Assembly (NCBI GenBank): GCA_015489815.1
Contig: WFZA01000050.1
Span: forward strand, 1-48,003
Source: Caldisericales bacterium
Lineage (GTDB): Bacteria > Caldisericota > Caldisericia > Caldisericales > Caldisericaceae
Reading direction: 5' to 3'
DNA length: 48,003 nt
Of this stretch, positions 39,716-47,812 are shown one piece after another. A program made the translations under genes and the position numbers. Numbering within the stretch: position 1 is the first letter of the stretch; every line of letters begins with the position of its first letter. The notes under the pieces were generated by a model, which made no database searches, was not told the origin of the DNA, and saw nothing but the letters and a program-made list of their open reading frames with translations.

Positions 39716-39750
39716 TTGACACAAATTCTGTTATGTGTAAAATACACATA
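39716..39750 (+). promoter_or_regulatory. PadR promoter with palindromic operator
   Basis: TTGACA (39716-39721), 16-base spacer, TAAAAT (39738-39743). The -10 box is covered by a perfect palindrome: TATGTGTA (39732-39739), AAA, TACACATA (39743-39750). It contains the ATGT...ACAT half-sites typical of PadR-family operators, so the regulator very probably represses its own promoter. Confidence 0.75.
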
Positions 39751-39760
39751 GGTGAACGAG

Positions 39761-40132
39761 ATGAGAAACAAAAAAGTTGGATGTGCAAAATTTGGATTTA
39801 AGATGAGCAATATATTGTATGCGGTATTTCTGTATTTGTTGATGGATAATTCAGCAAGCGGTTACGAATTAAGTGAGGAACTTTCTAAAGTAGGAATAGA
39901 TCCATCATATATTCCTTCGGGCATAGCCTATCGTTTGTTGCGTGATATGGAGGCAAACGGGCTGCTTGTTTCTAAGTGGGAGACATCGGGAAGTGGCCCT
40001 GCAAAAAGGGTTTATAAAATAACTGAATCAGGTAAAAAGTATCTTGAAGCATGGCTCGTCGAAGCAAAGAGAAATTTACAAACAATGGAGAATCTTATAG
40101 GTTTAATAGAGAGGAGGCTAAAAGATGAGTAA
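39761..40132 (+). CDS. PadR-family transcriptional regulator
   Basis: About 123 residues with a PadR winged helix: AVFLYLLMDNSASGYELSEEL, then IAYRLLRDMEANGLLVSKWE, GPAKRVYKITESGKKYL and a C-terminal dimerisation helix. The ATG at 39761 has AGGTG 6-8 bases upstream; a GTG at 39752 is possible but lies on the ribosome site. An operator-like palindrome overlaps the promoter. It overlaps the ferredoxin gene by 8 bases. Confidence 0.87.
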   Translation: MRNKKVGCAKFGFKMSNILYAVFLYLLMDNSASGYELSEELSKVGIDPSYIPSGIAYRLLRDMEANGLLVSKWETSGSGPAKRVYKITESGKKYLEAWLVEAKRNLQTMENLIGLIERRLKDE

Positions 40133-40763
40133 GGTAAGTGAATACTGGCACGGTATTCCACGGAAAGACATTCCATGGTACCCTACAGTAGATAAAAATA
40201 AATGCATTGGTTGTGGACTCTGCTTTGTTACCTGCGGAAGGAATGTTTACGAAATTAAAAACGGTAAAGCAGATGTGGTTAACCCGTATAATTGCCTCGT
40301 CGGTTGCACTACTTGCGAAACTGTATGTCCTGTAGGTGCGATAAGCTTTCCTGATAAGGAACTTATCCATAAAATTGAAAAAGAGTATGCAATTTTACGA
40401 GTTGTACAGGAGGAGCGCAAAAAGAAAGGTACAAAACTTGAACTTAGCAAAGCACGCTCTGAAGCAGAGAAGATTGTTTCTCAATCTCCACATCGTGCAG
40501 AATTTGTGATAGCAGGCCACATTTTAGAAAAAGACATACCTAAAAAACTTTTAGATCTCGTTTCTCAATGTAGTTGTGATATAGTTAATTTTAAATTAGA
40601 AACACCGTCTTTAAAGGTTTGTTTTGACGAAAAGGCGCCTTCAAGTGCTACATTTACCCTTGTTTCTCAGAAGTTTGAAGATGTGACGGAATGTGTTGAA
40701 AAAATTGATAAACTTTTAGAGCAAAATAATGTTGTCGTCGTTGAACACAAAAAGATATCTTAA
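40125..40763 (+). CDS. 4Fe-4S ferredoxin-domain protein
   Basis: A 212-residue protein with two ferredoxin-type cysteine clusters in the first 70 residues (CIGCGLCFVTC, then CLVGCTTCETVCPVG). A helical linker and a C-terminal alpha/beta domain of about 90 residues follow that I do not recognise. Co-translated with the PadR regulator. It may supply electrons to, or sense for, the downstream transport genes. A 189-base gap with no clear terminator separates it from the permease. Confidence 0.82.
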   Translation: MSKVSEYWHGIPRKDIPWYPTVDKNKCIGCGLCFVTCGRNVYEIKNGKADVVNPYNCLVGCTTCETVCPVGAISFPDKELIHKIEKEYAILRVVQEERKKKGTKLELSKARSEAEKIVSQSPHRAEFVIAGHILEKDIPKKLLDLVSQCSCDIVNFKLETPSLKVCFDEKAPSSATFTLVSQKFEDVTECVEKIDKLLEQNNVVVVEHKKIS

Positions 40764-40952
40764 GGACTATTGCAGTAGTAAGTGGGTATATAAAATGAAA
40801 ACGAAAATTAAAGCAATATTTTGTATAAAAGCAAAAAAATATAAAGCATGTACCTGTTTAATGATGTTTAATGGGCCATAATTGTGACCTCTATGCAAAA
40901 TGTAGATTTTTAATTTTAGTTATCGAAAAATCTTTTTAAGGAGGTTATAAGT

Positions 40953-42041
40953 ATGGAAAATAAAAGTAAATTAGTTGCTCTAAAAGAGCATTTAGATAAA
41001 TTTTTGCCGCTTTATGTGACAGTTGCAATAATTGCAGGTTTTATATTAGGGCTTCACATGAATGTGAAGGCTCACAGCAGTCTTTTTAAAACGCTCAATA
41101 TGATAGTTGTAATAAGTATGATTTATCCTATGATGGTAAACTTGAGAGTTGAGGCATTAAAAGATACTTTTAAATTGTGGAAAAGCTTGCTAATTGCATT
41201 ACTAGTAGGACTTGTATTTGCACCACTGCTCGTGTATGTGCTTGCACTAATGTTCCACATTAATCCGTCGCTTTCCTTAGGACTTATTCTTGCAGTTGTA
41301 GTTCCTTGTTCTTCTATGGCAATTGCTTACACAGGTCTTTCGGATGGAAATTTGGAACTTGGCACAATTATAGTTGCAATCAGCTTTACACTTGCAATTG
41401 TTACAGTACCGGGGTGGCTTAAACTGTTTGCGAGTGCGTACCATTTGAATGTTTCTGCATGGCTTCTTATTAAAACTATTTTAATAGTTGTATTTATTCC
41501 GTTCTTCTTTGGATATCTCACAAGAATATACTTACTGAAAAGGGTTGGCAAAGAAGGATTTATTAAAATAAAACCGTTGTTCCCGTCCATTTCTCTGCTT
41601 GGTATGTACACAATTGTATTTCTTATTTTTATGGAAAAAGCAAAACTCATTTATGCCAAGTTAAATATAGTGCTTATTGCTTTAATTCCATTAGTGTTAT
41701 ACTATGTAATCGGACTGTTGTTCCTTACTTACTTTGATAAGTGGATTGGACTTAAATACAAGGACCACATGGCAGTTGTATTTACTTCAATCGGGAAAAA
41801 CGAAGGTACTGCTATGGCAATTGCGCTTTCTGCAGGTATGGGGCTTATGGCTGTTCCTCCGGCAATTGTGCCAATTTTACAAATTCCATTCCTTATTGGA
41901 TATGTAAAAATTGCAAATAGGATTAAGATGCTTTACGGAGAGACACAATTAGTTGGAAAATTCGTTCCTGATTATTCTCACGAAAGTTTAGAAGATGCTC
42001 TGGAAGAAGTGGAAATTGAAGAAGAGGAAGAAAAATTTTAA
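40953..42041 (+). CDS. ACR3-like / bile-acid:sodium symporter family permease
   Basis: A 362-residue membrane protein with ten hydrophobic helices and a short acidic tail (EEVEIEEEEEKF). The central VVPCSSMAIAYTGLSDGN segment (Cys119) and the TSIGKNEGTAMAIALS segment match the ACR3 (arsenite efflux) branch of the BART superfamily. In ACR3 a conserved Cys of the fourth helix is needed for arsenite transport; Cys119 is a candidate counterpart. No arsC, arsR or arsA is visible, so other anions remain possible. AAGGAGGT site. Confidence 0.75.
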   Translation: MENKSKLVALKEHLDKFLPLYVTVAIIAGFILGLHMNVKAHSSLFKTLNMIVVISMIYPMMVNLRVEALKDTFKLWKSLLIALLVGLVFAPLLVYVLALMFHINPSLSLGLILAVVVPCSSMAIAYTGLSDGNLELGTIIVAISFTLAIVTVPGWLKLFASAYHLNVSAWLLIKTILIVVFIPFFFGYLTRIYLLKRVGKEGFIKIKPLFPSISLLGMYTIVFLIFMEKAKLIYAKLNIVLIALIPLVLYYVIGLLFLTYFDKWIGLKYKDHMAVVFTSIGKNEGTAMAIALSAGMGLMAVPPAIVPILQIPFLIGYVKIANRIKMLYGETQLVGKFVPDYSHESLEDALEEVEIEEEEEKF

Positions 42042-42065
42042 CCCACATTATAAGGAGGCGACATT

Positions 42066-42554
42066 ATGAGAATTTGTTTTACATCAGATCAGGCAAATGG
42101 GCTTGATAGTGTGATGAGTTATCACTTTGGGCATTGCCCGTACTTTGTCCTAGTAGATGTTGAAGGAAATAGAGTGGTAAATGTTGAGTCAATACCAAAT
42201 CCTTTTGCTGACGAGCATAATGCAGGGGATTTACCTTCATTTATGCATAGTAAGGGAGTAAATGTGATTATTACTGGTGGTATGGGTCCGAAAGCGCAGC
42301 AATACTTTGCGGATTATGGAATTACTCCTGTAATTGGTGCATACGGCAAAATAAGAGATGTGCTTGAAGAGTATCTAAAGAGCAAAGTTGAAGTTGTAAA
42401 ACCTGTTGAGAGACATGTTTCTCCTCAGCATTCCGAGCCAAAAAGTAAAGAAGAGGGAGAGGTGGAGCGTTTAAAAAAGGAAGTTACTGCCCTTAGAGAG
42501 CAGATTGCAGATTTAAAGTCTTTGCTTAAGTCTCTGGAGGAAAAACTTGGGTAA
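42066..42554 (+). CDS. NifX/NifB-like domain protein with coiled-coil tail
   Basis: A 162-residue protein. Residues 1-105 form a dinitrogenase iron-molybdenum cofactor (NifX-like) domain: MRICFTSDQANGLDSVMSYHFGHC, VIITGGMGPKAQQYF. The remainder is a charged linker and a coiled coil (EVERLKKEVTALREQ and onward) that standard members lack. These domains bind Fe-S or Mo-Fe clusters or act as metallocofactor chaperones. Embedded between an ACR3-like permease and two half-permeases. AAGGAGG site; overlaps the next gene by 8 bases. Confidence 0.82.
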   Translation: MRICFTSDQANGLDSVMSYHFGHCPYFVLVDVEGNRVVNVESIPNPFADEHNAGDLPSFMHSKGVNVIITGGMGPKAQQYFADYGITPVIGAYGKIRDVLEEYLKSKVEVVKPVERHVSPQHSEPKSKEEGEVERLKKEVTALREQIADLKSLLKSLEEKLG

Positions 42555-43056
42555 GTCATTACTTTTGATGCTTGCGGCTTACGGGGTTCTCGTTGCCGCA
42601 AGCTACTTTTATGCATTTAGAAAGGACACAGGCAAAGCAAAGAAAAGTATAGCAAAAGGGTGGAAGCAATTTTTAAATCAACTTCCTTTACTTATAGCAG
42701 TCTTTCTTTTAGTAGGTATATTTGACAAATTTGTCCCTAAAAGTATTGTTGTAAACCTGATTGGAAAAGGGAAGGGGTTTATGTCAGTTTTAAGGGCATC
42801 TATTCTTGGTTCTATTATTATGGGTCCTGTTTCTTCCGCATACCCATTTGGTGCTGTTTTGCTTGATAAAGGGGCGACAATTGCTGCAACTGCCGTATTT
42901 TTGGATGCCTGGGTGATGGTTGGTGTGATTACTCTTCCTTTTGAAATTTCTGTGTTTGGAAAAAAGTTTGCCCTTTTACGAAATATACTTGCGTTTGTCG
43001 GCACGATAATAATAGGAATGATTACAGGACTTTTACTCGTAGGGAGTGCATTCTAA
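42547..43056 (+). CDS. Half-size DUF318/ArsP-like permease, subunit A
   Basis: A 169-residue membrane protein with four or five hydrophobic helices and the motif ILGSIIMGPVSSAYPFGAVLL followed by KGA. It corresponds to one half of the DUF318 (YraQ/ArsP) permease, which is normally about 300-350 residues. The start is a TTG at 42547, supported by GGAGG six bases upstream and no later alternative. Its stop overlaps the next gene by one base. Confidence 0.75.
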   Translation: MGKSLLLMLAAYGVLVAASYFYAFRKDTGKAKKSIAKGWKQFLNQLPLLIAVFLLVGIFDKFVPKSIVVNLIGKGKGFMSVLRASILGSIIMGPVSSAYPFGAVLLDKGATIAATAVFLDAWVMVGVITLPFEISVFGKKFALLRNILAFVGTIIIGMITGLLLVGSAF

Positions 43057-43565
43057 TGAAAGAATATATTAAAAAACATCTGTTTGAATTTTCTACTTTT
43101 GTTTTTACTGGGGTACTTTTTGTATTTTATCCAGCTAAAACACTTGCTGCAGTAGAAGAGGGAACGATACTACTGCTCAGGATGCTGCCCATGTTTCTTT
43201 GTGTGGTGTTTTTCTCATCTTTTCTTGCGTTATTCCTTTCACCTAAAACTATCCAGAAGTATCTCGGTAAAGAAAGCGGATTCTGGGGTATTGTTATTGC
43301 TGCAGTTCTTGGCACTGTAATTGTAGGGCCGCTCTGGATTCTTTTCCCTTTGTTTGAAACGCTCCTTAAGAAAGGTGCTCGCATATCGATTGTGGGAGCA
43401 ATGGTGGGGGCGTTTGCAATTAAAACTCCCTGGATTCCTTATGCAATTTCCTTTCTTGGAGTGAAATTTATTCTTATTTCTGTGGTACTTATCCTTGGGT
43501 ATGCAGTTATCGAAGGACTTCTTATGGAAAAGATTCTTTTAAAAGTAAATTATCAGCCAAAGTAA
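43056..43565 (+). CDS. Half-size DUF318/ArsP-like permease, subunit B
   Basis: A 169-residue membrane protein, the same length as subunit A, with the parallel motif VLGTVIVGPLWILFPLFETL followed by KKGA. Together the two genes equal one complete DUF318 permease and are presumably a heterodimer. Starts in an overlap with subunit A's stop. The cargo is unknown; ArsP itself exports organoarsenicals. Confidence 0.75.
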   Translation: MKEYIKKHLFEFSTFVFTGVLFVFYPAKTLAAVEEGTILLLRMLPMFLCVVFFSSFLALFLSPKTIQKYLGKESGFWGIVIAAVLGTVIVGPLWILFPLFETLLKKGARISIVGAMVGAFAIKTPWIPYAISFLGVKFILISVVLILGYAVIEGLLMEKILLKVNYQPK

Positions 43566-43587
43566 TTTCAAAATTTTGGTAATTTTG

Positions 43588-43593
43588 TATAAT
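43588..43593 (+). promoter_or_regulatory. -10 box of C45 gene, predicted leaderless
   Basis: A perfect TATAAT at 43588-43593 with six bases to the ATG at 43600. The -35 is weak (TTTCAA at 43566-43571, 16-base spacer) and lies over the half-permease stop. Confidence 0.55.
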
Positions 43594-43599
43594 AAAAGT

Positions 43600-45372
43600 A
43601 TGAAAAAGAACTATGCAACAAGGAGAACTCTAGTTATCTTATTGATTGTCTCAGTATTCGTTATGCCTCTCTATGGGTGTAATTCTCGTCTCCATAAAAG
43701 ATACTTTAAGGTTGAAATTTCTAACGGGATAAAAAGTTTCGATGATGGGTCCCTAAAGTATGGATACGGTATACCAATTTTAACATTAAAAGGTACGCAC
43801 TACGAGGCAGGTCTCGAATACGGTGTTTTGATGAGAGATAAATTGCAGGATGTATACGGCCAATTAGGTGAAATAGAAAAATCAATTTTGAGAAAGTTCC
43901 CAGTCTATATGAAATTTTTTGTTAAGGTGCTCGTATTTGTAAAACTATTTTTGATAAAATCTCGCCTCTCTAAAAATTACATTGACGAGCTAAAAGGAGT
44001 TTCAGATGGTTCTGGGATACCTTTTAACCAACTTCTTATTGCCTCATTTATACCTGAGCTTTTTACATTTTCTTGCACTTCATTTGTAAAAGATGTAAAT
44101 GGGCGTTTAATCCACGGAAGAAATCTTGACTATTATTTCCCTTTAATTGGGGAGAATCCCATTATTGTAAGATATCTTTTAAATGGGGAAATTCCTTACA
44201 CAACAGTGGGTTGTGTCGGTTATTTAGGTGCATTTACGGGAATGAATGATAAAGGTATTACTATAACAGTGAATGCTGCACCTACCGTAAACTCGGACGA
44301 TGGAGACGGAAGGCCTATTACATTTGAGGTGAGAGATTTGCTCGCTCACTCAAGAACTCTTACTGATATTTCCGCTAACTTAAGGGATTATCATTCCGTT
44401 AAAGGATGGATGCTTACTATTGGTAGTAGTGATGAGAAAAAAGCGCTTGTTTATAACATTGCAGAGACGCATTTGAAACCTACATTTATGGATGGAAGAG
44501 AAATTTTCGTAACAAATACCTTTATAGATAAAGAATTTGCTCATAAGTATATGAGTCTGCACGAAGCAGGAAGTGAAAGCAGCGTGAGTAGGTATGTAAT
44601 GGCAGAGAATCTAATAAAAAAAGTGGATTCAATTCAAACTGCTATAGACTTCCTGAGTAACGCGGACTTTTTTGGCTACAAGAATACTATTGGTGCAGGT
44701 GATGTTACCTTAAATAACGAGGGCACGCTACAGTCTGTTATTATGGATCCCTCTAATCTTACTATCTATTTTTCTTCGAGCGGCATGTATGCAGGTTTCT
44801 TTGACTTTTATAAATTCGATGTAAAAAGAAGCGAGATTTATCTATACAAAGAAAAAAACACACTAACGAGTTTGAACTCTTTCGAACAGTTCTCCACATG
44901 GTTTAAAAAAGCTGAATTATTGTATTTGGAAGGTAATTTTAAGGGTGCATATGAGTTTACCAGAGGTCAAAATATTTCCTATTTAATGCAACTCGAGGGT
45001 ATGTTTGATGTAATGCGACGATTAGAATTACTTAATAAAGAAGGAGCATTATTGCTTAATAGCGCTGATAGGCTAATAGACAAATATTCTGATTACGCAC
45101 TCCCGTATCTTATAGAAGCAAAAATATTTTTTGCAAAAAAAGACTTCAAGAATGCTGCTTTCTATGGCGAGAAAGCATTGGAAGCGAGGATTATATTCCC
45201 GTATATGAAAGCAGATGCTCTGTCTGTTGTGGCTGAATCGTATTATAAACTTCACAAAAGGGGTCTTGCAAAACAATACGCAAGGAAGAGCAAGAATATG
45301 ATCGAGCAGTATGCTATAGGAACCCATGAAAAGGAAATTTTGTCTAAAATAAATCGAATCTTGTCTGATTAA
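43600..45372 (+). CDS. C45-type acyltransferase/hydrolase lipoprotein
   Basis: About 590 residues: lipoprotein signal with lipobox LYGC, then an acyl-CoA:6-aminopenicillanate acyltransferase/choloylglycine-hydrolase-like (C45, Ntn-hydrolase) domain. The probable autoproteolytic nucleophile is the Cys in TFSCTSF (about residue 159), followed by GRLIHGRNLDYYF and GYLGAFTGMNDKGITIT. A C-terminal region of about 170 residues is helical with TPR-like repeats. The longer frame from a TTG at 43576 adds eight residues and is not supported by a ribosome site; a leaderless start at 43600 is preferred. Likely extracytoplasmic amidase; substrate unknown. Confidence 0.78.
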   Translation: MKKNYATRRTLVILLIVSVFVMPLYGCNSRLHKRYFKVEISNGIKSFDDGSLKYGYGIPILTLKGTHYEAGLEYGVLMRDKLQDVYGQLGEIEKSILRKFPVYMKFFVKVLVFVKLFLIKSRLSKNYIDELKGVSDGSGIPFNQLLIASFIPELFTFSCTSFVKDVNGRLIHGRNLDYYFPLIGENPIIVRYLLNGEIPYTTVGCVGYLGAFTGMNDKGITITVNAAPTVNSDDGDGRPITFEVRDLLAHSRTLTDISANLRDYHSVKGWMLTIGSSDEKKALVYNIAETHLKPTFMDGREIFVTNTFIDKEFAHKYMSLHEAGSESSVSRYVMAENLIKKVDSIQTAIDFLSNADFFGYKNTIGAGDVTLNNEGTLQSVIMDPSNLTIYFSSSGMYAGFFDFYKFDVKRSEIYLYKEKNTLTSLNSFEQFSTWFKKAELLYLEGNFKGAYEFTRGQNISYLMQLEGMFDVMRRLELLNKEGALLLNSADRLIDKYSDYALPYLIEAKIFFAKKDFKNAAFYGEKALEARIIFPYMKADALSVVAESYYKLHKRGLAKQYARKSKNMIEQYAIGTHEKEILSKINRILSD

Positions 45373-45862: not shown

Positions 45863-47675
45863 TTATTCTTCCAAACCTAATTCTTTTAGTCTTTCTTTTG
45901 TGGGTACTCCGTTTTCATCCCAGCCCCTTAGTCTATAGTATTCTGGCAGCATTACATCAAGATGAACAATTTGTCCTTTTGATGCACCGTCAGGCATAGG
46001 CTCTTTAAGGAATCGTGGTGGAAGTGTATCATCTGCTTTGGTGAGTCCTGCTTTTAAATTCCACAGCCTTTCTAAATTCCAGATTCTTTCGCCTGTTTTT
46101 AGTGCTTCTTCTGTGGAATATTCGATTCCAGTAACTGCTGAAAGGAGTTGCGCATAATCGTCTGCGCCTAATGCAAATGAGCTGAACAGACATAACCCTT
46201 CTGCATCTATTACTGCGGTGAGATCTTGAAATGTTTTTACCCATTGAGGCTTTCCCTCTGTTGTGAATGGATCGATTTTTTGCGGCGTTCCGAGAATTTC
46301 CGGAGAGATCATATAGCCTCTTACATGACAGCCACCGCGGTTTGAAGTTGCATACTCAAGTGCGTGCCCCCTGTGCGCCTCTTGGATCGTATGCTGGAAT
46401 GTCTTGCTTCTTTACACTCATCGAAAGTTCAGGGTGTCCGTGTGTCTTTGCAAATTCGTAGGAACCTTCAGCTAACTTATCACCAATGCCTTTTCTACAT
46501 GCGATTACTTCTGGATAGTAAAGAATCGTTTCTGTATTTCCAAATTTTAATTCGGGTGCGCCGTTTAATTCTTCTTTTTTTAAATAACCTCTTTCGTAAA
46601 GTTCCATAGCACAAGCAATGGTAGCCCCAGTAGAAATTGTGTCGAGCCCTAATTTGTTGCAGGCGTTGTTTGCTTTTATGACGGCTATGAGATCGTCTAT
46701 TCCACAGTCTGCACTGAATGCCCAGCTTGTTTCGTATTCAGGTCCTTCACCTTCTTCACCGTCTGGTAATTTTGTTACTCTTCCGCACCCAATTGGGCAT
46801 CCGAAGCATGGTTTGTTTTTTACGAGGTATGTTTCTCTTAATTTCTCTCCTGATACATTATCTACGCCTTCAAATACGCCTGTTTGGAAGTTTCTCGTTG
46901 GATATAGGCCGTGCTCGTCGATAATGTGGTTTAGAACCATTGTGCCGTACAGTGGTAAGCCCTGCGAGGTAACGCCATTTGCTTTGATTTTATCCATTGT
47001 TACTTTGAGAATTTCTTTGAACTTTTCAGGGTTTGCAATTTCAGGTCTTTTGTGTCCCCTCGTTGCAATTGCTTTTAGTTTCTTAGAGCCCATTACTGCT
47101 CCAACCCCTGTTCTACCAGCAGCTCTTGCTTTCTCATTTATAATTGCTGAAAACTTAACGAGATTTTCTCCTGCAGGGCCGATACACGCGACTTTTATCT
47201 GTTTGTCTCCACCAAGCTCTTCGATAATTTTGTCTGTCGTTTCGTATGTATCTTTTCCCCATAAGTGTGAAGCATCTTTTATCTCTACCTTGTCCTCTGT
47301 AACCCATAGATACACTGGCTTTTCAGATTTTCCTTCGATAATCAGGATATCGTATCCTGCTTTTTTGAGTTCTGGTCCCCAGAAGCCTCCGGAATTTGAT
47401 CCTGCAATTACACCGTTTAAGGGGCTTTTCGTTACGACATCATACCTTCCACTTGTGGGCGAAGGAGTAAGAGTCAACGGTCCCGTAGCAAAAATAAGTT
47501 TGTTTTCTTCTCCCAATGGATCTGTGTCTGGTGAAACTTCGTCATAAAGAATTTTTGCTGCATACCCTCTCGCGCCAATGAACTTCTTTGCAATACCTTC
47601 GTTGATCGGTTCTTCGCCAATCTTGCTTGTGGAAAGATTTACTCTAAGAATCTTTCCCATGTAGCCTCCTATCAT
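45863..47675 (-). pseudogene. aor: Aldehyde:ferredoxin oxidoreductase, frameshifted
   Basis: A tungsten-type AOR of about 604 residues if repaired. The N-terminal part (MGKILRVNLS, FATGPLT, GSNSGGFWGPELKKAGYD, ACIGPAGENL, AGRTGVGAVMGSKKLKA) and the Fe-S ligands CFGCPIGC are read from 47675 to 46356; the C-terminal part ([12 protein letters not shown], the fourth-ligand region DAEGLCLFS, to the stop at 45863) is in another frame. The shift is at the C5 run 46367-46371: removing one base restores [16 protein letters not shown]. It oxidises aldehydes with ferredoxin as acceptor. The ATG at 47675 has AAGGAGGTG; 47660 is an alternative. A true lesion and an assembly indel cannot be told apart here. 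Confidence 0.88.
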
Positions 47676-47812
47676 ATCCACCTCCTTGTTTAAAGTGCCC
47701 CCAAATAAAAATAGAGGCCAATTGTGGCCCCTTTGCAAGGATGGCAGGCCTGTCAGTTACCCAACAAACCCTATCGTCTGCACTTCCCTGAGGGATAGAT
47801 GCATATCGGAAC
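47676..47812 (-). ncRNA. Structured AOR leader, candidate riboswitch
   Basis: About 135 bases between the predicted start of transcription and the AOR ATG. It contains CTATC...GATAG and CCTT-GCA-AAGG hairpins, a conserved-looking segment GACAGGCCTGCCATCC, and an intrinsic terminator just before the ribosome site. A GGCC in that segment can pair with the 5' arm of the terminator. A Moco/Tuco-type riboswitch would make sense for a tungstopterin enzyme, and the 3' part faintly resembles the Moco RNA motif, but this is not proven. Confidence 0.45.
47701..47731 (-). terminator. Attenuator hairpin in the AOR leader
   Basis: On the minus strand GGGGCCA (47731-47725), loop CAAT, TGGCCTC (47720-47714, one G-T pair), followed by TATTTTTATTT. 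It sits 26 bases upstream of the AOR ATG, so it would end transcription before the gene. Confidence 0.7.

Follow-up and report, generated by a model that had tools for sequence, protein, structure and literature searches.

A run of six genes in a Caldisericaceae genome, encoding a PadR-family regulator, a ferredoxin, an SBF-superfamily permease, a NifX-domain protein with a coiled-coil tail (NifX-CC) and two half-size ArsP-like permease subunits (PermA and PermB), represents a cassette that is real, conserved and shuffled across distant bacterial phyla. It is apparently undescribed; a literature search, largely of open-access papers, returned nothing on PadR with NifX, on half-size ArsP, or on Sao/COG0701 as such a system. 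The regulatory architecture of the cassette is well supported and, in our judgement, probably correct; the substrate and the sensing role are what we infer. The reading that we prefer, for which we consider the balance to be even, is that of a PadR-controlled efflux cassette in which, judging from the sequences, NifX-CC may be the signal-sensing partner of PadR.

Gene organization of the locus

The window (the whole stretch of DNA analysed, 48,003 nucleotides) is contig C50 of a Caldisericaceae metagenome-assembled genome (MAG) of 1.29 Mb that is 78% complete, and those named relatives that share the locus are also Caldisericaceae MAGs. A check of the open reading frames placed all six genes of the initial annotation in a single run, with agreeing Pfam families (Table 1), and, because these genes are real, lie in one run and are also linked in relatives, the observation of a conserved multi-gene system holds. 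The genes for PadR and ferredoxin overlap by 8 nt, those for NifX-CC and PermA by 8 nt and those for PermA and PermB by 1 nt, and a gap of 189 nt separates the ferredoxin and SBF genes. A seventh gene, for an acyltransferase, starts 10 nt past PermB and is kept in three other genomes (G001, G002 and G005). The PadR reading frame opens at a GTG (39752); translation more probably starts at the ATG at 39761, which follows AGGTG.

Table 1. Features of the PadR–NifX-CC locus; positions are those of the window.
Feature	Position	Strand	Evidence or remark
Promoter TTGACA-N16-TAAAAT	39716-39743	+	Overlapped by palindrome 39732-39750
PadR-family regulator	39752/39761-40132	+	PF03551, 53.9 bits (cut-off 27)
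2[4Fe-4S] ferredoxin, long helix and ACT-like C-terminal domain	40125-40763	+	Fer4 families (Pfam)
SBF-superfamily permease, ACR3-like	40953-42041	+	SBF, 147.3 bits (cut-off 24.3)
NifX-CC: NifX/ORP domain, SYHFGHC motif, C-terminal coiled coil	42066-42554	+	Nitro_FeMo-Co, 80.3 bits (cut-off 26.3)
PermA, half-size ArsP-like permease subunit	42547-43056	+	ArsP_1, 41.8 bits (cut-off 32.3)
PermB, half-size ArsP-like permease subunit	43056-43565	+	ArsP_1, 36.5 bits (cut-off 32.3)
C45/AAT-family autoproteolytic acyltransferase, lipobox-like N terminus; accessory	43576-45372	+	Downstream of PermB

On the minus strand, at 45863-47738, an aldehyde:ferredoxin oxidoreductase (AOR) gene is split into open reading frames of 460 and 149 aa. 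Because a related locus (L034) has a single open reading frame of 605 aa at the matching position, the split looks like a frameshift, either real or introduced by assembly.

Pairing of PadR with NifX-CC

Scanning the NifX protein against genome contigs gave 21 loci with identities of 51–89%, from Caldisericota, Thermotogota (Mesoaciditoga), WOR-3, TA06, Aminicenantes and Hydrothermota, together with single contigs labelled Aenigmatarchaeota and Proteobacteria; many of these loci come from vent-sample MAGs, and some of the organism labels may be wrong. A PadR gene lies next to that of NifX-CC in nearly every locus showing both sides, over about five phyla, in the order PadR-NifX in Caldisericota, Thermotogota and TA06 and in the reverse order, NifX-PadR, in Aminicenantes and WOR-3. 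At one locus from Mesoaciditogaceae (L041:2253-3179) the two are fused into a protein of 308 aa, with PadR at residues 37-110 and the Nitro_FeMo-Co domain at 160-251, and at another (L043) an ArsR-type helix-turn-helix (HTH), joined in one protein to a ferredoxin of the kind found here, occupies PadR's place beside NifX-CC. In G019, which is a distant member of the class, the genes follow a matching order, PadR-DUF5320-NifX-PermA-PermB-SBF, at 27–40% identity. PadR was found within 1.5 kb of only four of the 30 best general PF02579 loci, and the pairing is therefore a trait of the NifX-CC subfamily and a few near paralogues. Overlapping PadR and NifX reading frames at L047 were not counted as a fusion.

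The candidate operator

The PadR promoter matches at 11 of 12 positions, is the best in the region and ends 8 bp before the PadR reading frame; the total of promoter-like sites across the region is no higher than chance. A perfect palindrome, TATGTGTA-AAA-TACACATA, overlaps the -10 box of the operon. Its core, ATGT-N9-ACAT, is an inverted repeat at PadR's own promoter that fits the ATGT/ACAT operators, with spacers of 8-10 nt, described for PadR/LmrR (PMC3506622), and the palindrome is on this basis a candidate operator for PadR. Since palindromes with 8-bp arms appear in 105 of 5000 shuffles of 100 bp, such a palindrome is not very rare and is weak evidence in itself, and the argument for an operator therefore rests on its position and on its recurrence at related promoters. 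Exact matches to TATGTGTANNNTACACATA in 19 genomes occur only at the PadR promoters of the source genome (G000), where this is the only exact site in the sequence available, and of G002, which has a second operator site upstream of a NifX-SBF-SBF run. L034 retains both the site and the promoter, with two changes; in L035 the same site stands ahead of PadR and a variant, TATGTATAAAATACATA, ahead of a second NifX-SBF-SBF run, and similar sites are present in L041 and L045. A search of the 189-nt stretch that separates the ferredoxin gene from the SBF gene found no operator.

The second run of L035 (L035:4167-6882), with its PadR-type operator in front, encodes two SBF permeases behind another NifX paralogue, whose tail is IssA-like and rich in aromatic residues, Gly and Arg.

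Exchangeable exporters in related cassettes

The exporter part of the cassette varies, consisting of the half-size ArsP-like pair, an ACR3-like SBF protein, a TehA/TDT protein, or a rhodanese with TauE. The channel of L043 is of the TDT/TehA type (328 bits against a cut-off of 237), a WOR-3 cassette combines an ACR3-like SBF protein with Usp and an AhpD-like protein, and DGC proteins occur in L133 and also, alongside an SBF permease, in contig C38 of the source genome. The theme common to these exporters would be small inorganic anions of the As/Te/S type, and it is because the exporter families replace one another in related cassettes that we infer export of an anion of the As/Sb/Te/S class; any one substrate would be at best a tentative choice. 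Export of sulfite, thiosulfate, sulfide or persulfide from sulfur respiration, with sensing through Fe-S/sulfide chemistry on NifX-CC, would suit the Aminicenantes version (NifX-PadR-DUF2490-rhodanese-TauE), the TauE that follows PermAB in L139 and the dependence of Caldisericum exile on sulfur compounds for growth (PMC12285271). We nevertheless think this reading rather unlikely, given that TauE and rhodanese are broad families and that no sulfur gene was seen adjoining the Caldisericaceae or Thermotogota cassettes.

The permeases and the question of arsenic

The initial annotation had described the SBF protein as an arsenite-type permease and had proposed arsenic or antimony as the exported ion. 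As an arsenite/antimonite resistance operon, the cassette would have the SBF protein as its ACR3 pump, PermAB as a methylarsenite (ArsP) pump and PadR in place of ArsR. ACR3 is indeed the nearest NCBIfam of the SBF protein, which keeps in the aligned place (VPCSSM against APCTAM/ARCIAM) the TM4 cysteine on which As(III) efflux by ACR3 depends (PMC3317726), and the AhpD-like neighbour in WOR-3 is a weak ArsM/AhpD match (21 bits). However, the SBF protein scores only 111 bits against the ACR3 model (TIGR00832), far under its equivalog cut-off of 282.8, with other members of the subfamily at 110–116. A conserved C-terminal glutamate is important in ACR3; that of the SBF protein is one position off register (GKNEGTA versus NNFELA), and L102 has asparagine instead (GKNNGTA). 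The cluster contains no ars genes, as the initial annotation had also noted, but a true ACR3 is encoded at another place in this genome (G000:C36, 373.8 bits), next to genes for a P-type ATPase and a repressor of the CsoR type (G000:C36:5818-9546, L129), and this is likely to be its metal/arsenite resistance locus. The close SBF subfamily was found only beside NifX-CC (all five complete copies in the family), and cassettes missing the SBF gene are common among the relatives.

The half-permeases also argue against a role in arsenic resistance. PermA and PermB, of 169 aa each, match only positions 12-136 of the 294 of the ArsP_1 profile, that is, its N-terminal half, and fall short of the classical ArsP_1/COG0701 protein of about 300 aa with two repeats. 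Comparison of 24 PermA and 24 PermB homologues with the classical pair of L113 placed PVSS, PLWI or similar at the CSC position, so that neither half-permease has a cysteine there; PermA has none at all. Because this position is replaced, classical ArsP-type thiolate binding is unsupported for both. With the related cassettes that carry TauE and rhodanese or TDT transporters weakening it further, we regard an arsenite/antimonite operon as unlikely; the initial annotation was too specific on arsenic.

PermA is confidently predicted to be all-helical (pLDDT 89), and a fold search with it gave no significant match, the best being a gut sorbitol transporter at E 0.14, and therefore no hint of a substrate. 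The close PermAB pair adjoins NifX-CC in all nine of the Caldisericaceae genomes that have the pair, and also stands beside it in Thermotogota and on one WOR-3 contig.

Several further loci contain related permeases. In G047:C96 (L116), three PermA-PermB pairs lie within about 10 kb, accompanied by two genes for PadR and a number of short ferredoxins of the HgcB-like type, and one of the PermB proteins bears the C-terminal domain of the ferredoxin. On a Halorubrum megaplasmid (L149), an ACR3-like protein named 'arsenic resistance protein', whose neighbours are DUF302, DoxX and Usp genes with no ars genes among them, is possibly another misnamed SBF permease. An apparent fusion of PermB to DUF169 in L102 was rejected, the parts being joined by a run of N.

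The ferredoxin

Two cluster motifs lie within residues 1-78 of the ferredoxin, and the C-terminal domain, unrecognised in the initial annotation, spans residues ~121-212 and is predicted to be an ACT-like alpha/beta sandwich. In fold searches the N-terminal half matched ferredoxins and the C-terminal half gave weak ACT-like matches (MJ1480 and NikR), of which the Saccharop_dh_N domain of MJ1480 was the best, an assignment that concerns the fold class only. A PermB-like protein of G047 ends in a homologue of this domain (38% identity, E 2e-15), a fusion that links the domain to the permease. The inclusion of the ferredoxin in the system is borne out to this extent, but the protein is absent from many cassettes, including the Thermotogota and Aminicenantes ones examined.

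The NifX-CC protein

Twenty-two members of NifX-CC share invariant SYHFGHCPY, N45, H51 and TGGMG, and a C-terminal coiled-coil pattern, LR..IA..KS, in a charged, heptad-like helix with few glycines. Their NCBIfam matches include no NifX-specific curated model, only MrpORP at 71.7 of 450 bits, and the nearest solved structures are 2yx6 (PH0822), 1t3v and 1o13. HFGHC is the proposed Fe-S cluster ligand motif of MrpORP (PMC6345978), and a related protein, IssA, binds thioferrate (PMC5524996). A degenerate NifX (HFGQC, VGRMG) in G007 is accompanied by a 66-aa SBF remnant, with no PadR or PermAB adjoining, as would be expected of a decaying unit.

Further PadR-NifX pairs in Caldisericaceae (L101, L103, L164 and L167), in which HFGHA or HFGHT replaces HFGHC, make up a second class of unit with no obvious exporter genes.

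Trafficking of Fe-S or Mo/W cofactors, in which NifX-CC would carry or store clusters, the permeases would import a building block and PadR would just set expression, is improbable: the ORP/IssA relatives do carry or store clusters (PMC5524996, PMC6345978), PadR also occurs by operons of NifX with a MinD-ferredoxin ATPase (L108, L110 and L114) and a tungsten-type AOR gene occupies 46356-47738, but the NifX-CC cassettes contain no Mrp/MinD ATPase, the tail is a coiled coil without the Gly/aromatic/Arg-rich cationic character of that of IssA, the transporters come from exporter families and the AOR gene is on the opposite strand. NifX-CC might also be merely a co-regulated cluster carrier. The earlier suggestion that it is a sensor or adaptor is plausibly right and fits its pairing and fusion with PadR.

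Proposed mechanism

In the PadR-controlled efflux cassette that we prefer, PadR would bind the palindrome on the -10 box and repress its own operon. NifX-CC would bind a small cluster of the metal-sulfide or thiometallate type at HFGHC, a property of its family, and its coiled coil may contact PadR, as the observed fusion and adjacency suggest, so that repression would be relieved or adjusted. Once induced, PermA-PermB, together with the ACR3-like SBF protein in some genomes, might carry out of the cell a small inorganic anion that accumulates in sulfidic habitats, namely a thio- or oxy-anion of the As/Sb/Te/S class. The ferredoxin with its ACT-like domain would act together with the permease and might be its redox subunit or one that senses a ligand. 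More tentatively, PadR and NifX-CC may constitute a two-protein, sometimes one-protein, metallosensor that switches exchangeable exporters, jointly with PermA-PermB as a heteromeric half-ArsP exporter having its own ferredoxin/ACT subunit; the ORP-type binder of metal-sulfide clusters would then be the ligand-sensing part of the repressor and would read thiometallate/sulfide stress.

Anaerobes widely encode NifX/ORP-domain proteins, most of which have no known function, and the link of one subfamily to a repressor, which in one case extends to a fusion, would assign the family a part in sensing; this could be examined with a 19-bp operator and two small, soluble proteins. The cassette would also provide a functional lead for the uncharacterised half-size ArsP-like permease pairs that recur in many genomes, and would hint at the means by which thermophiles in sulfidic vents detect toxic thio-anions and rid themselves of them.

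Comparison with known systems

The PadR/LmrR efflux operons (LmrR-lmrCD, bcPadR1) likewise have a small PadR repressor, an ATGT/ACAT inverted repeat at the promoter and exporters in the operon; here, however, the system involves a NifX-domain protein, either separate or fused, and the exporters are half-ArsP and SBF proteins rather than ABC/MDR transporters. With ORP/MrpORP and IssA (PF02579), NifX-CC shares the NifX/ORP domain and the HFGHC motif, metal-sulfide chemistry being a feature of these relatives, but it differs in being tied to PadR and exporters, and in having a coiled coil, no Mrp ATPase and no Gly/Arg tail. The ACR3 permeases share the SBF superfamily and the cysteine, whereas our protein, 170 bits under the cut-off and with its glutamate off register, belongs to a distinct subfamily found beside NifX-CC. 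ArsP/COG0701 proteins (PF03773) are alike in that each subunit here is one ArsP repeat, in a tandem pair; in contrast to them, there are two half-size proteins, with PVSS/PLWI in place of CSC and no cysteine in PermA. Finally, the permease loci with ArsR, thioredoxin and ferredoxin have the same, HgcB-like, kind of ferredoxin, which is fused there to an ArsR-HTH (L043) or a thioredoxin-like domain (L112), whereas in the present locus it is fused to an ACT-like domain and lies in a PadR operon.
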